From: Candidatus Methanoperedens sp.
Lineage (GTDB): Archaea; Halobacteriota; Methanosarcinia; Methanosarcinales; Methanoperedenaceae
Reading direction: 5' to 3'
Length of the DNA: 34,812 nucleotides
Assembly: GCA_023249105.1 (NCBI GenBank)
Contig: JAHFDG010000042.1
Location: forward strand, 1 to 34,812
Position numbers and translations under genes: made by a program. Below, in pieces: positions 21,633 through 33,430 of the stretch (its first letter is position 1; every line of letters begins with the position of its first letter). A model generated the notes under the pieces. That model was given only the letters and a program-made list of their open reading frames with translations. It was not told the DNA's origin and made no database searches.

Positions 21633-21773
21633 GATTTTTGCGGTCGGTTAGACCGGTCACAAATTGCAGGAATTTTGAGGGAAGGGGGCATGGGAGTGTT
21701 ATATCGCTAATAGAGTCCGGCGTCCCCTATAAACTATGGACTCACGCTCCTCATACTCCTATTAATAACGAAT

Positions 21774-22856
21774 TCAAAAAAAATTATCACGAAGTTCTTT
21801 TTCAATCTCTTCCAGAGCTTCTTTCGCAACTTTCCCAGCATATTCATCCTTCATAGCCTGAATGAGAGGCTCTATTGCTCTTTCATCCCCGATATTTCCA
21901 AGTGCTTGTGCTGCATACGTTCGAACCATCCCTTCTTTATCTTTTAGAGCCTGAATGAGAGGCTCTATTGCTCTTTCATCTCCGATATTTCCAAGTGTCC
22001 ATATTGCGAGATATCGATCTACCCAATCTTCATCTTTTAGAGCTTGAATGAGAGGTTCCACTGCTGGTTCTCCTATTATTCCAAGTGCTCGTGCTGCGTT
22101 AACTTGAACGTTGAAATCTTCATCTTTTAGAGCTTGGATGAGAGGTTCCACTGCTGGTTCTCCGATATTTCCAAGTGCCTCTGCTGCATTAATTCGAACA
22201 TTCTTATCTTTATCTTTTATAGCTTGAATGAGGAGCTCTATTGCTCTTTCAGCTCCTATTTCTGTCTGTAGCATACTGATTTTGATATTGAGTGCCTCTA
22301 TAGTGGATTTTTCCGCAGGTAGTATTATCTCCGTATTCTCTCGAATCACAGTTATTCCTTCTGGTTCGGTCTGCGTTGCAATCATGGCGATGACTTTACC
22401 GGTTCCCAGATAACCAAAATAAGGATGATTTGTCGTGCTCATAACCTGAATTACGTCCCCTTTAACGATTGGACGCTTAGCGATTTGCCATTTGATACTC
22501 TTTACGTCGATCGGAACTTCTTCAATGTTGCTGCCTAACTCTGGACGGTCAAGAACTATTTTCTCTGCTGTTTTAACCCCCTCAGCTTTTTTAATAATTA
22601 CGTTTTCGCCTATACAAACGCCAGCATTTGTTCTGATAAGCCCATCGATCTTTACGGTATTTTGGCTGCGCTCCGGGCTTTCATCTCGCCAAGCTTTTGC
22701 CGCTGTTCGTTTCTTTCCTTTGATTTCTATAATGTCACCTGGTATAAGCTGTAATGACCTCATGGTGTCGGGATGAATGCGTGCGATTCCCCTCCCGGCG
22801 AGTGCCAATTCGGTCGAGGCGACTATCAGTTGCTTTGTTTCCATGTTCATCTCCAT
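21774..22856 (-). CDS. Cdc48/p97 N-domain fused to HEAT repeats (no ATPase)
   Basis: Residues 10-103 are a Cdc48_N double-psi beta-barrel (GRGIARIHPDTM, PGDIIEIKGKKRTAAKAW, IDGLIRTNAGVCIG). Residues 118-182 match the second Cdc48 N subdomain (RPIVKGDVIQV, TEPEGITVIRENTEI). In Cdc48/VAT these modules capture substrates and cofactors and feed two AAA+ rings. Here the ATPase is absent; residues 201-352 are about five 31-residue PBS-lyase-type HEAT repeats (IGEPAVEPLIQALKDED). The product is 360 residues. ATGs at 22856, 22850 and 22844 are all possible; GGAG sits before the last. It is the final gene of a four-gene operon. It probably acts as a protein-binding adaptor; the target is unknown. Confidence 0.85.
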   Translation of the reverse strand: MEMNMETKQLIVASTELALAGRGIARIHPDTMRSLQLIPGDIIEIKGKKRTAAKAWRDESPERSQNTVKIDGLIRTNAGVCIGENVIIKKAEGVKTAEKIVLDRPELGSNIEEVPIDVKSIKWQIAKRPIVKGDVIQVMSTTNHPYFGYLGTGKVIAMIATQTEPEGITVIRENTEIILPAEKSTIEALNIKISMLQTEIGAERAIELLIQAIKDKDKNVRINAAEALGNIGEPAVEPLIQALKDEDFNVQVNAARALGIIGEPAVEPLIQALKDEDWVDRYLAIWTLGNIGDERAIEPLIQALKDKEGMVRTYAAQALGNIGDERAIEPLIQAMKDEYAGKVAKEALEEIEKELRDNFF

Positions 22857-22868
22857 GTAGCGAGGAAA

Positions 22869-23411
22869 TTATACATCATCAACTCTAAATATCGAAATAC
22901 CTAATTTATCACAAGTAGGCTCATTCAACGGACTTGGCTCTTTACATACAATCCCTATTTTAATCTCTTCAAACATCGGGTAATCCTCCTTAAATAAATC
23001 GCTGTAGACAAGAACTTGACCTATTGCCTCATGATTTGGGTCTTTCTTCCCCTCTAAAACCCATGCTCTTTTCCCTATTATACACACATAATCGATGGAT
23101 TGAATTAGATTCGCATAAATTCCGTGTTTTCCACTCCACTCTCTCTTGGTAATTCCTTGATATAAATCATAATCTACCAACCCAAGTTCCTGTTGTTTTC
23201 TTAGTATACGCTTTAAATTTTCCTCTTCCATTCTCTCCTCGGCTCTTTTATAAGATTCAGCTAAGTCAGGCTTATCCATTCCTAATCTATTGAACCCAAC
23301 TGCTATTTCCATAAACCATTCTTTTTTATTTCTTGGTATTTCATTCTCTGGAAGATTCTTCTCTCTGAGCCAATCAAATAACTCCTTATGCGATTTGGAT
23401 TCTTTAGGCAT
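22869..23411 (-). CDS. Putative PD-(D/E)XK nuclease-like protein
   Basis: The 180-residue protein has a C-terminal half that resembles the restriction-endonuclease-like fold: SIDYVCIIGKRAWVLEGKKD gives D107 followed by E120-x-K122, then AIGQVLVYSDLF with Q132 and a final strand-turn-strand (IKIGIVCKEP, LGISIFRVDD). This order of D, ExK and Q/Y helix is typical of PD-(D/E)XK nucleases such as HsdR N-terminal or DUF91-like proteins. The N-terminal half is helical and charged (residues 1-90). It lies 14 nt after the zinc-ribbon gene and 12 nt before the Cdc48N-HEAT gene. The nuclease call is inference from pattern only. Confidence 0.65.
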   Translation of the reverse strand: MPKESKSHKELFDWLREKNLPENEIPRNKKEWFMEIAVGFNRLGMDKPDLAESYKRAEERMEEENLKRILRKQQELGLVDYDLYQGITKREWSGKHGIYANLIQSIDYVCIIGKRAWVLEGKKDPNHEAIGQVLVYSDLFKEDYPMFEEIKIGIVCKEPSPLNEPTCDKLGISIFRVDDV

Positions 23412-23425
23412 ATTTTCTAAGATTT

Positions 23426-23782
23426 TTACTCCTTTCCACGCATCTCTTCAAGTAATAACATGAGATATTCATTATCTTCCATCACCTTTAGAAACTTCAA
23501 GAAACATCTGTGGCATAATTTAGCTCCCTCACTCCATCTCATAGTCTTATGACTCCAATATCCCTTATTGATCTCGATTTTCTCGCCACAAAAATGGCAA
23601 ATCTGATCTTTAGTGTTATCAAAAAACCGATAGCCCCCGTAATGAAGAGCCATGAGAGGATGTGGGTTCAGAGGATCATTTATTTTATGGATCAGCTCTT
23701 TTATTTCATTATCTGATAATTTTTCGCCTTCATCGTACCTAATTTCTAAAGTGGATTTCTTTCTATTTGTAAAAACAACCAT
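23426..23782 (-). CDS. Hypothetical zinc-ribbon protein
   Basis: The 118-residue protein carries two knuckles: C62-x2-C65 (ICHFCGEK) and C90-x2-C93 (LCHRCFLKF), 24 residues apart, which should bind one zinc ion. The N-terminal 55 residues are polar with no motif I know, and the C-terminus is a hydrophobic/acidic helix (EYLMLLLEEM). GAGGAT before its start overlaps the end of the upstream gene, so translation is probably coupled. It belongs to the four-gene operon with the nuclease-like and Cdc48N-HEAT proteins. It may bind nucleic acid or a partner protein. Confidence 0.7.
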   Translation of the reverse strand: MVVFTNRKKSTLEIRYDEGEKLSDNEIKELIHKINDPLNPHPLMALHYGGYRFFDNTKDQICHFCGEKIEINKGYWSHKTMRWSEGAKLCHRCFLKFLKVMEDNEYLMLLLEEMRGKE

Positions 23783-23787
23783 GATTT

Positions 23788-24312
23788 CTAAATATCCTCA
23801 TATAGACGCTTTATTACCCTCATTGCGCTTTTCAGACTTTTTTCATCGTAAATATTTCCCTCCCATTTCCAGCCTGGTAGCTCGCTTTCTTGTTCATTTG
23901 TTGGGCGATAAAGATATACACCATCTTTTCCGGTCGTTACAAGGGTCCTTACAAGGCATAGCGCCTTAGCACCTTTATAGAAAATGGAGTTATTCTTTCT
24001 TTTCTCAATTAGAGGTGTCTCTTTTGGATCTTTTCGGAGTGTGAATGAGACTTCATTTCCGAGGCTTAAAATCTCCTCGAAGAGTTGTAACGCAATTTGT
24101 TTATATTCATCAGCCACCGGGAAGTCAACTGATTCTTTTAGCACTTGTATCGAAGAAGAGTGCAAACCAATGTTATGCGCCTCATAGAAATTTAAAAGCA
24201 TTTCTATGACATCGTTAAATGTTTCTTTCACAGTTCCCAGGTCGCTAAGCCTATTATACGTCTGTTCTCTGATACGTATGGTTTTCTGACTTTCTATTTC
24301 AGTCTCTTTCAT
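23788..24312 (-). CDS. Hypothetical protein with antitoxin-like DNA-binding N-terminus
   Basis: Residues 8-45 (QKTIRIREQTYNRLSDLG then ETFNDVIEMLLNFY) match the short strand-helix-helix of archaeal VapB/RHH-like antitoxins of the type that open with a TIRI strand. The remaining 130 residues are unlike any antitoxin I know and include a long helical part and a Trp-rich segment (ELPGWKWEGNIYDE). It is the first gene of the four-gene minus-strand operon; a TATA-like ATTTATACT lies about 35 bases upstream. It could be the operon's regulator or a DNA-targeting subunit. Confidence 0.65.
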   Translation of the reverse strand: MKETEIESQKTIRIREQTYNRLSDLGTVKETFNDVIEMLLNFYEAHNIGLHSSSIQVLKESVDFPVADEYKQIALQLFEEILSLGNEVSFTLRKDPKETPLIEKRKNNSIFYKGAKALCLVRTLVTTGKDGVYLYRPTNEQESELPGWKWEGNIYDEKSLKSAMRVIKRLYEDI

Positions 24313-24325
24313 AACATATAGTACG

Positions 24326-24350
24326 ATCTAATAGTATAAATCACTTTGTG
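24326..24350 (-). promoter_or_regulatory. Promoter of the Cdc48N-HEAT operon
   Basis: On the minus strand a TATA-like GATTTATACT (about 24333-24342) lies 20-30 bases before the first ATG at 24312, giving a very short leader or a leaderless transcript. No ribosome binding site is visible before that ATG, consistent with this. Confidence 0.45.
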
Positions 24351-24507
24351 TAATTAGGTGATTATGTAGAGTATGGATATTATTTCGTTCAGGCTTCTTG
24401 CGAGCCGATGGTCAAACTAACAGATAAAAATATAAAATGGATAGGCATAAGGGTCAACAATAGGCTTAAGTATTCATCCGCAGATACAAAATATGGGAGG
24501 AAAATGT

Positions 24508-24738
24508 ATGTCAAGAATAAAAATGGAAAAAGAAAAAGTTTCTGAGGAGCTTAAGGATGAGGTGCTCAAGCAATCGGGAGAAGAACATATAAGAAGAGGA
24601 CAGTATGACGCTCTTACGGAATTTTCAAAGTTTTGGGTGAACTTTGATGAACAATTATATCCTCTGCTCGAAGAGCATCGAACTCAAGTAGAAGAAGCTA
24701 TCAGGAGTTGGATAAAGCTTCAGATAGAAAAAAGATGA
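24508..24738 (+). CDS. Small hypothetical acidic/basic helical protein (76 aa)
   Basis: I start at the ATG at 24508 because GGAGG lies seven bases before it; an ATG at 24493 includes that site and would add five residues. The 76-residue product is almost entirely charged helix (KMEKEKVSEELKDEVLKQ, then FDEQLYPLLEEHRTQVEEAI). It has no motif or membrane segment. It is divergent from the Cdc48N-HEAT operon across a 195-bp gap and might be regulated with it. Real gene likely; function unknown. Confidence 0.65.
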   Translation: MSRIKMEKEKVSEELKDEVLKQSGEEHIRRGQYDALTEFSKFWVNFDEQLYPLLEEHRTQVEEAIRSWIKLQIEKR

Positions 24739-24779
24739 GGCGAGATCATGCACTCTTGTATCTTTTCTCTTGTTAAGTC

Positions 24780-24935
24780 ATGGTGAGTAAAACCTATGAT
24801 ATTACTATGGCTACAGAAAATGGTTGGAATTGGCATAACTTGATAGATACTCGTTTAGACCTTAAATTTGCAATTAGAGTAACTGCAAAAAATGCATCTC
24901 CTAAAATGAGGATTGAACTGCATATATTTTTTTAG
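24780..24935 (+). CDS. Doubtful small ORF (51 aa)
   Basis: An ATG at 24780 opens a 51-residue frame (MVSKTYDITMATENGW start, LHIFF end). There is no ribosome binding site and no recognisable motif. It follows the 76-residue gene and could be coupled to it or be chance. Confidence 0.2.
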   Translation: MVSKTYDITMATENGWNWHNLIDTRLDLKFAIRVTAKNASPKMRIELHIFF

Positions 24936-25105
24936 AATAAGCTTTTACCAGCACTCAATGTTTTCCAATATCCTCATTCCACACCTGAGGATGTTTCCGT
25001 ATAAACCCGCTCATCAATCACTTGCACTCATCAATATCCAAATCGACCACAAGAACCCCATACGATTCCTTAAATACCTCTGGCTAACCATTGGTAAATA
25101 CTAAA
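24936..25105 (-). pseudogene. Possible gene remnant with two in-frame stops
   Basis: Read on the minus strand, one frame gives EVFKESYGVLVVDLDIDECK, a TGA, then LMSGFIRKHPQVWNEDIGKH, a TGA, then VLVKAYSKKIYAVQSSF. The composition and hydrophobic pattern look like coding sequence broken by two TGA codons. I cannot name the family. An alternative is that this is non-coding DNA that happens to read well. Confidence 0.3.
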
Positions 25106-31829: not shown

Positions 31830-32612
31830 CTACATGAAATCTAACATAAATCTCAATTCTTTTACGACCTCCTCAAAATCGGGGAGGTTTTTAGTAAGTC
31901 TTGCAAGCGCGATAGTCCAGAACTTTTTTGCCTCGGAAAGCCTATTCTTGTCAAAGATTAGATCGGGTTTGAACTCGACCCCTGTAATCTGGCATTTCAG
32001 GATAAGAAGTTCTTTGATCTTATCCGGGTTGAACTCTTTTTCTTTCATGAGCCGCCAGACATCGTAATAATCCCGTGCCTTCCCTCTCTGAAGGATGCTG
32101 CGGAGCTTTTCCACCAGGATCTCATTTGGCGAATAAACAAGTACTTCAAATTCCGGAATATCCTCATACTCAGGCTTCACTTTTATCCGCAGGGGTTTTT
32201 CAACCATTTTTTCTTTCAGGGAGATGTCATGAGCGATCTTATTCTTGAATCCGATCGGACCCAGAAACTGGACATCAGCAAAAATAGCATACTCTCTTGC
32301 ATTAAAAGCACTGAACGAATAAGCGATATTGCTTTTCTTGCTGATAGATGAGAAAACATGCTCAAATCCCAGTTTCAAATCTGAAGGATTAACTTCCTGC
32401 ATGATCGTGAAGTCCAGATCCTCAGAAAGACGCCATTCAGGAAAGTAAATTTTCCTTATCGCTGTCCCTCCTTTAAAGATCAGGATATCCCTGAGCTTTG
32501 AGTCCTCCCAGTAAATGCCGCTGAGCAGCCATGTCAGAGCGTAATCCTTTTCCAGGGTCGCCACATTGAAACCTGTCTTTCTGGCTCGCCTTCTTAATTC
32601 ATTTTCATCCAT
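31830..32612 (-). CDS. abiEii: AbiEii-type nucleotidyltransferase toxin
   Basis: AbiEii toxins are MenT-like nucleotidyltransferases that block growth, for example during phage infection. The 260-residue protein has the signature KGGTAIRKIYFPEWRLSEDL with the acidic pair in SEDLDF (about residues 47-68) and the later motif GKARDYYDVWRLM near residue 180. Both are intact, so the toxin should be active. It lies two bases after the antitoxin gene and is probably translationally coupled to it. AbiE systems are type IV toxin-antitoxin pairs. Confidence 0.93.
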   Translation of the reverse strand: MDENELRRRARKTGFNVATLEKDYALTWLLSGIYWEDSKLRDILIFKGGTAIRKIYFPEWRLSEDLDFTIMQEVNPSDLKLGFEHVFSSISKKSNIAYSFSAFNAREYAIFADVQFLGPIGFKNKIAHDISLKEKMVEKPLRIKVKPEYEDIPEFEVLVYSPNEILVEKLRSILQRGKARDYYDVWRLMKEKEFNPDKIKELLILKCQITGVEFKPDLIFDKNRLSEAKKFWTIALARLTKNLPDFEEVVKELRFMLDFM

Positions 32613-32614
32613 TT

Positions 32615-33430
32615 TTAATACCTCATCCAGCCCGTGAGTTCATCCTTCGTCCGGTTTATAATGAGTCCGTATTTTTTAGAATATTCCAGAACTTTCTTTG
32701 GTCCAAGGGGGTCAAGCCACATATACCCCATAAAGTCGCTCAAAGTTTTCTCAGGACATATTCCTTCTGCTAAGCCGAGCAGCTCCAGCGCATAACAAAC
32801 CCTCCTCGTAACCACGCTCACTCCCAGTCTTTCTGAGTACTCAAGCAGCTTTACAAAGTCCAGTTCATTTCTGGCATTCCATACCCCTTTGATAGCTTCA
32901 TCCAGCCCGCCGCAGTATTTTGGATATAACATGCAGTCAACGATAGTTTTCTCCCTTGAAGATATATTGAACGTACCCCTGGCAGCCTTTTCTTCCACAG
33001 TTCCGAAAAATCTCTTTTTTGTCAATGTGACAAATTCGAATCGGGTTTCTCCATAATCCAGATCTCTTTTCCTCTGTGTTGTGGCAACAAAGACAACATT
33101 GGGAACCTGTTCAGTCATGCCCCAATAATTAAGGGCAGTCCAGAAACCGATGTAATAAACATCTATGATAGATGGAACGATTAGATATGGAACCTCAGAC
33201 CATGATCCCTCGTACCCCGCTCTTGCGGGGATCAACAGATATTTTCCTTTTTCTATCTCTTCGATCCTTCCCTTTTTCTTCAAGCGGTACACCACATTCC
33301 AGACAGAGGGAGTGGAGGTTTTAAGAATTCGTTTTGCATCGCTTATTGAAAAGACCGATCTATTCTCCTCTTCTAAAGTGAACAGCAGCCTGAGTTCGTT
33401 CGCTCCTAATTTTATATTTCGTGTAATCAT
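32615..33430 (-). CDS. abiEi: AbiEi-type antitoxin and transcriptional autorepressor
   Basis: The 271-residue protein has an N-terminal winged-helix domain (about 1-70: FSISDAKRILKTSTPSVWNVVYRL), a middle domain with VPYLIVPSIIDVYYIGFWTALNYWG in part, and a C-terminal antitoxin domain. The family neutralises AbiEii without forming a stable complex and represses its own promoter. A 37-bp palindrome covers the start codon, fitting autorepression. A TATA-like CTTATTAATATTTG lies upstream. Gene order (antitoxin first) is normal. Confidence 0.92.
   Translation of the reverse strand: MITRNIKLGANELRLLFTLEEENRSVFSISDAKRILKTSTPSVWNVVYRLKKKGRIEEIEKGKYLLIPARAGYEGSWSEVPYLIVPSIIDVYYIGFWTALNYWGMTEQVPNVVFVATTQRKRDLDYGETRFEFVTLTKKRFFGTVEEKAARGTFNISSREKTIVDCMLYPKYCGGLDEAIKGVWNARNELDFVKLLEYSERLGVSVVTRRVCYALELLGLAEGICPEKTLSDFMGYMWLDPLGPKKVLEYSKKYGLIINRTKDELTGWMRY

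Follow-up and report, generated by a model that had tools for sequence, protein, structure and literature searches.

The N module of Cdc48/VAT recruits substrates and cofactors to an AAA+ ring; what, then, might such a module do in a protein that carries no ring? The question is raised by a 34,812-nucleotide stretch of Candidatus Methanoperedens sp. (contig JAHFDG010000042.1 of assembly GCA_023249105.1, analysed at its full length and referred to here as the window), which is one entire contig of a 3.28-Mb genome in which methyl-coenzyme M reductase is encoded. Four minus-strand open reading frames (ORFs) lie at positions 21774–24312, and the last of them, gene 4, encodes a 360-aa protein that a preliminary description had taken for a fusion of both Cdc48 N subdomains (Nn and Nc) to about five HEAT repeats, without an ATPase. 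This architecture was confirmed by Pfam, where CDC48_N was matched at residues 9–92 (E 3.6e-25) and CDC48_2 at residues 119–180 (E 1.8e-6), followed by HEAT_2/HEAT_PBS at residues 199–350 (E 3e-44), all above cut-off. No Pfam match to an AAA domain was found in the protein, in which the HEAT array comes directly after the N module, and a sequence search of the PDB matched the N part to VAT-N (1cz4, E 3.5e-7). We tentatively read the gene 4 product as an adaptor or decoy without ATPase that derives from a copied Cdc48 of its own genus, with a mode of action and partners that we infer below.

The N part of gene 4 is approximately 50% identical to the nearest Cdc48 of its own genome, in which five full-length Cdc48 genes are present. 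An assembly chimera of two known genes was ruled out, as no Cdc48 matches the N part at more than about 50% identity. In a phylogenetic tree, the gene 4 N module fell within the genus's own Cdc48 clade (support 98/97) on a branch of length 2.78, versus a median tip of 0.068; such a very long branch is as expected after release from the AAA+ ring. Across 40 Cdc48 orthologs, 65 columns are near-invariant; 61 of these columns fall before residue 183, the end of the N module, and gene 4 has kept 40 of the 65. No match pointing to a phage origin of the fusion was found in phage records or viral contigs.

The HEAT array comprises five units, starting at residues 202, 233, 263, 293, and 324, and in the PDB sequence search these repeats strongly matched MTH187 and the designed alphaRep proteins. 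The first four units are, on their sequences, young, with pairwise synonymous divergence (dS) of 0.15–0.47. Among these four, five positions differ in 28 of 30 pairwise comparisons, as against 32 of 126 for the other 21 positions. The fraction of possible five-position sets that score as well as the chosen one is just 1.5e-5, a figure that is not a clean probability, since the five positions were picked on the pattern of alphaRep after the alignment had been seen. They are the alphaRep variable positions 18, 19, 22, 23, and 26, which make the target contacts in solved complexes (PMC3754942). Variation at these positions is typical of the natural repeat family and thus marks the array as a scaffold of a functioning kind rather than as the product of a special event.

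Searches of 186 genomes from the order and 393 from the phylum turned up no second N+HEAT fusion. A parallel fusion is nevertheless encoded in the same genus: in congener G043, the 461-aa protein P0005 (C86:36881-38263; L163:2382-3767) combines CDC48_N (E 2.6e-15) and CDC48_2 (E 6e-8) with TPRs and is likewise ATPase-free. Nearby lie a DUF3800 gene, an HsdS fragment, and a gene for a DUF1186/SEC-C protein. A homolog in a second congener, G063, is 54–57% identical, with a ratio of nonsynonymous to synonymous divergence (dN/dS) of about 0.15, and the N+TPR protein is thus under purifying selection in the genus. Because P0005 and gene 4 share no more than about 33% identity in their N modules, and because several Cdc48 proteins match P0005 better, the two fusions probably arose as separate inventions. 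The existence of this parallel fusion strengthens the reading of gene 4 as a free adaptor. With the N+TPR relatives, Cdc48-N fusion is no single accident.

Beside the G063 homolog (C52; L175:949-3255), an ORF that is CHAT-like by motif reading follows after 34 bp, with a weak PADLOC match to BovA (E 3.4e-5), and a NOV_C nuclease-like ORF lies upstream and a DEDDh exonuclease gene downstream; this gene group is possibly a small conflict system.

Other motor-less Cdc48 N modules are few. Among the matches listed for 60 diverse genomes, every CDC48_N match above cut-off lies in a frame of at least 700 aa, save three: gene 4 itself, a protein of about 195–203 aa encoded in the same genome (C44:45970-46209), in which a CDC48_N-like barrel is joined to a C-terminal zinc ribbon with no Nc match, and a 100-aa protein that consists of the Nn barrel alone (G255, L166:1584-1886; CDC48_N E 1e-25). 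Two haloarchaeal plasmids each encode an Nn-Nc module with nothing attached, 174 and 187 aa long (L079:4956-5480; L080:4935-5498); both proteins are annotated as hypothetical, and one has a PIN/AbrB pair and a recombinase gene close by. Several further short CDC48_N frames in congeners were rejected as free N modules: those in G058:C112 and G050:C50 are contig ends, and those in G042:C250 and G042:C110 are frame-broken full-length Cdc48 genes. A weak CDC48_N match in G245 comes from the N-terminal barrel of a 503-aa enzyme which, read from its sequence, resembles AMP phosphorylase. In G005:C12 (L038:734-2821), the D1 region of a Cdc48 gene is apparently split by a lengthy coiled-coil segment that reads in a different frame, possibly an insertion element. 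No described ATPase-free Cdc48-N fusion was found in the open-access papers searched, which does not prove absence.

How might a motor-less N module act? The cofactors of p97 dock at a common site, the Nn-Nc cleft (PMC5389986), and the ATPase-free Cdc48 cofactor Ufd1 binds ubiquitin through its UT3 domain (PMC5559722). On the reading favoured here, a Cdc48 N module would have been duplicated without its AAA+ ring and joined to a young HEAT array of the alphaRep type. The array would hold a specific client protein, while the N module would present a Cdc48-type docking surface to the partners of Cdc48, and the fusion would either bring these partners to the client or keep them off Cdc48 hexamers; the gene 4 protein itself can unfold nothing. 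The three genes ahead of it would encode an RHH-type (ribbon-helix-helix) regulator, a protein with a zinc finger, and a PD-(D/E)XK nuclease that is mobile. A free adaptor was among the suggestions of the preliminary description, and it is the reading that fits best.

Several findings weigh against it. No N+HEAT ortholog was found on which selection could be measured, so that gene 4 could be a novelty of one species. The placement of so long a branch in the tree is uncertain. Approximately one-third of the invariant Cdc48 columns are altered, including K14, A15, P17, and D19 before the GRGI motif, and partner binding may be altered as a result. Among the N+TPR proteins, the G063 homolog has lost its Nn subdomain. 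One rival reading is a non-functional or transitional chimera, in which a Cdc48 N fragment was joined by chance to a HEAT gene and is now drifting; the restriction to one species, the very long branch, and the lost invariant columns are all compatible with this. However, the 360-codon frame is intact, 40 of the 65 near-invariant columns are kept, changes in the HEAT units cluster at ligand positions and are not random, and an independent N+TPR protein in the genus is under purifying selection. We therefore regard a drifting chimera as unlikely.

The features of the locus are as follows.

21633–24944: variable segment, flanked by ilvN and a deaminase remnant and delimited by blastn of the window against congeners G059 and G058
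21774–22856, minus strand: gene 4, 360 aa, Cdc48 Nn and Nc (residues ~9–180) and five HEAT repeats (~199–350), without ATPase
22869–23411, minus strand: gene 3, 180 aa, small PD-(D/E)XK nuclease-like protein
23426–23782, minus strand: gene 2, 118 aa, CxxC...CxxC protein
23788–24312, minus strand: gene 1, 174 aa, RHH/antitoxin-like N-terminus and a second, C-terminal domain
24493–24738, plus strand: small divergent ORF, 81 aa, within the variable segment; no family match
24945–25074, minus strand: deaminase remnant of cytidine/deoxycytidylate type, 130 bp; gene intact in G059

The coordinates agree with the earlier account of four closely spaced minus-strand genes, with gaps of 5, 14, and 12 bp, and genes 1–4 probably form one operon, with gene 4 last, that would be co-transcribed. 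To the left, at ~16.7–21.6 kb, lie core genes (M42 peptidase, LeuA-type, IlvB, and IlvN). GC content is 36–42% in the variable segment versus 47–52% in the ilv genes. In G059, a deaminase gene directly follows ilvN and the four-gene segment is absent; the remnant at 24945–25074 is an 85% nucleotide match to the 3' end of this deaminase gene by blastn. In G058, yet another gene follows ilvN. The four-gene segment thus occupies a variable accessory spot, which may reflect either gain in the window or loss in G059. An AbiEii toxin/AbiEi antitoxin pair (E 5e-32 and 4e-10) is encoded several kb off, at 31830–33430, in the AT-rich right part of the contig.

For genes 1–3, the preliminary description had proposed an antitoxin-like DNA binder, a CxxC...CxxC protein, and a protein like PD-(D/E)XK nucleases; the assignments of genes 2 and 3 held up on closer analysis, and the N-terminus of gene 1 is RHH/antitoxin-like. 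The N-terminus of gene 1 matches DUF7557 above the Pfam cut-off (E 2.8e-6) and VAPB_antitox below it (E 7e-5). A putative TATA-like element, TTTATACT, was read from the sequence about 28 nt upstream of the ATG, and gene 1 is a probable regulator and first gene of the unit. DUF5655 was tried as its C-terminal domain and gave no match, and a single-sequence model by AlphaFold (AF2) was unusable (pLDDT 39). A homolog in congener G057 is 63% identical (dN/dS ~0.23). The other relatives, at 35–43% identity in about eight genomes, are solitary; in one other family they recur at the same kinds of housekeeping position, and G459 has such a relative too. In one archaeal family, solitary RHH genes of this type (L119, L120, L124–L126, L128) were seen to adjoin apparent cobyrinate synthase, sugar-phosphate/pyrimidine, or chelatase genes.

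Gene 2 has homologs with 43–49% identity in G445 and G484. Its cysteines (C62xxC65...C90xxC93) are conserved in three homologs, and these cysteines and a GYW..M..S.G.K.C..CF motif are invariant across the four proteins; the protein is probably zinc-binding. In G445:C97 (L117:6937-9416), the gene for a 272-aa protein of this CxxC type overlaps a downstream ResIII/DEAD helicase gene by 4 bp, and the two products are possibly a partner pair.

The sequence of gene 3 matched no known family. Its residues D107...E120xK122...Q132 are invariant in five homologs, and an AF2 model built from five sequences gave a PD-(D/E)XK core (pLDDT 69.5, with core segments mostly at 80–93), so that a structure check gave the predicted fold. 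Foldseek with this model returned NucS/EndoMS at the top (E 6e-4 to 9e-4), followed by AF1548, VC1899, Can2, Card1, Bax1, and McrC; TM-scores were low because the flanking insert of gene 3 is poorly modelled. A lone homolog in G283, from another family of the phylum, is 70% identical (dN/dS ~0.18) and has, on a reading of the flanking sequences, a dihydroorotate dehydrogenase/reductase pair on one side and valS on the other; further relatives are found in Archaeoglobales, Methanosarcinaceae, Thermoplasmatota, and Archaeoglobi. In both Archaeoglobales and Methanosarcinaceae (L081:5467-5988; L010:2471-2959), an unrelated helical protein is encoded upstream of the gene-3-type nuclease, possibly as a conserved two-gene unit. 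A shorter relative of 136 aa, with the same D...ExK...EAIGQ motif, is encoded in the same genome (C21:11414-11548; L011).

Could the four genes then constitute a dedicated system for defence or DNA processing, in which the RHH protein regulates, the zinc-finger and PD-(D/E)XK proteins act on nucleic acid, and the N/HEAT protein scaffolds them? The tight co-directional spacing, the nuclease fold of gene 3, and the variable AT-rich spot with an AbiE pair several kb off are in favour, as are the truncated nuclease gene after the RHH gene in G057, the gene 2 homologs upstream of a ResIII/DEAD helicase gene in G445, and the neighbours of the N+TPR relatives, which include HsdS and DUF3800 in G043 and the NOV_C, DEDDh, and CHAT-like genes in G063. 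The set was never found together elsewhere, however, whether in 238 genomes of the order and class, in 393 genomes sampled evenly across the phylum, or in GTDB contigs, viral contigs, and plasmids, and here the cassette proposed in the preliminary description was not upheld. No PADLOC model fits genes 1–3, and homologs of the nuclease and RHH genes are mostly solitary, some beside housekeeping genes. In G057, a match to the start of gene 3 (86% nucleotide identity) begins ~64 bp after the gene 1 homolog and runs for 23 codons, at which point the frame breaks off; no gene 2 lies between them, and gene 4 is absent. On the strength of this linked remnant, genes 1 and 3 have travelled together, and genes 2 and 4 seem to have been added separately. 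The neighbours of gene 4 look like a locally assembled mix and not an obligate system, and a dedicated four-gene system is improbable. A defence role of the locus is no more than hinted at, by the variable island, the AbiE pair, and the neighbours of the N+TPR relatives.

A narrower proposal treats the RHH protein and the nuclease as a toxin-antitoxin-like pair and genes 2 and 4 as passengers. The linkage does recur in G057, and the N-terminus of gene 1 has a VapB-like match below cut-off, but G283 and other genomes have the nuclease alone, and about eight have the RHH gene alone, so that neither needs the other; no PIN-domain toxin, as would be expected of a VapBC pair, was found among the neighbours of gene 1. 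We hold such a pair to be distinctly unlikely. Least probable of all is that the N barrel has been repurposed away from Cdc48, for example to bind nucleic acid or a small molecule, since, although the double-psi barrel fold is widely used and C44 encodes a CDC48_N-like barrel that is joined to a zinc ribbon and lacks an Nc match, gene 4 has retained both Nn and Nc in Cdc48 order with ~50% Cdc48-specific identity.

What is new at this locus is a class of architecture, a motor-less Cdc48 N module on a repeat scaffold, and not a gene cassette. To our knowledge, no adaptor or cofactor for archaeal Cdc48/VAT has been described. A motor-free N module on a ligand-specific scaffold would offer a direct tool to find archaeal N-domain binders, and the fusion would allow one to test whether motor-less N modules of the Ufd1 kind have more than one origin. 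It is a more speculative extension, and a doubtful one, that the genus repeatedly builds motor-less Cdc48 adaptors on HEAT or TPR scaffolds (TPR in two congeners) in accessory islands, as a fast-evolving layer that would redirect or block Cdc48 partners during conflict with mobile elements and would, in its logic, be the archaeal equivalent of Ufd1-type cofactors.

Comparison with known systems places the parts of the locus more closely. For gene 3, the core fold and D...ExK...Q signature are those of NucS/EndoMS, AF1548, VC1899, Can2, and Card1, from which the protein differs in its small size (180 aa), its N-terminal HxxL...NLP...W region, and its helical insert. The PADLOC system HEAT_CxxC_PD-DEXK has the same three ingredients by name, and one of its models picks up the HEAT repeats of gene 4 (E 2.8e-6), but this match is generic, and genes 2 and 3 match no model at E ≤ 1. 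The repeats of gene 4 share their variable positions with alphaRep/MTH187, and differ in being naturally fused to a Cdc48 N module. With Cdc48/VAT/p97, gene 4 shares the Nn double-psi barrel and Nc in the same order, at ~50% identity to the Cdc48 of the genus, whereas the D1/D2 ATPase is replaced by HEAT repeats and no ring is possible. Ufd1, the UT3 domain of which shares the Cdc48-N fold, is likewise ATPase-free, but has a tail and an SHP motif where gene 4 has a HEAT array; gene 4 derives separately, from archaeal Cdc48, and no UFD1 match was seen among its best 25 Pfam matches at E ≤ 1. P0005 of G043 is not a close sister of gene 4, since their N parts are ~33% identical, and it differs in its TPRs and its neighbours; it resembles gene 4 in its overall plan, in which an Nn-Nc module without ATPase leads into an alpha-helical repeat scaffold, and in being encoded in an accessory region.

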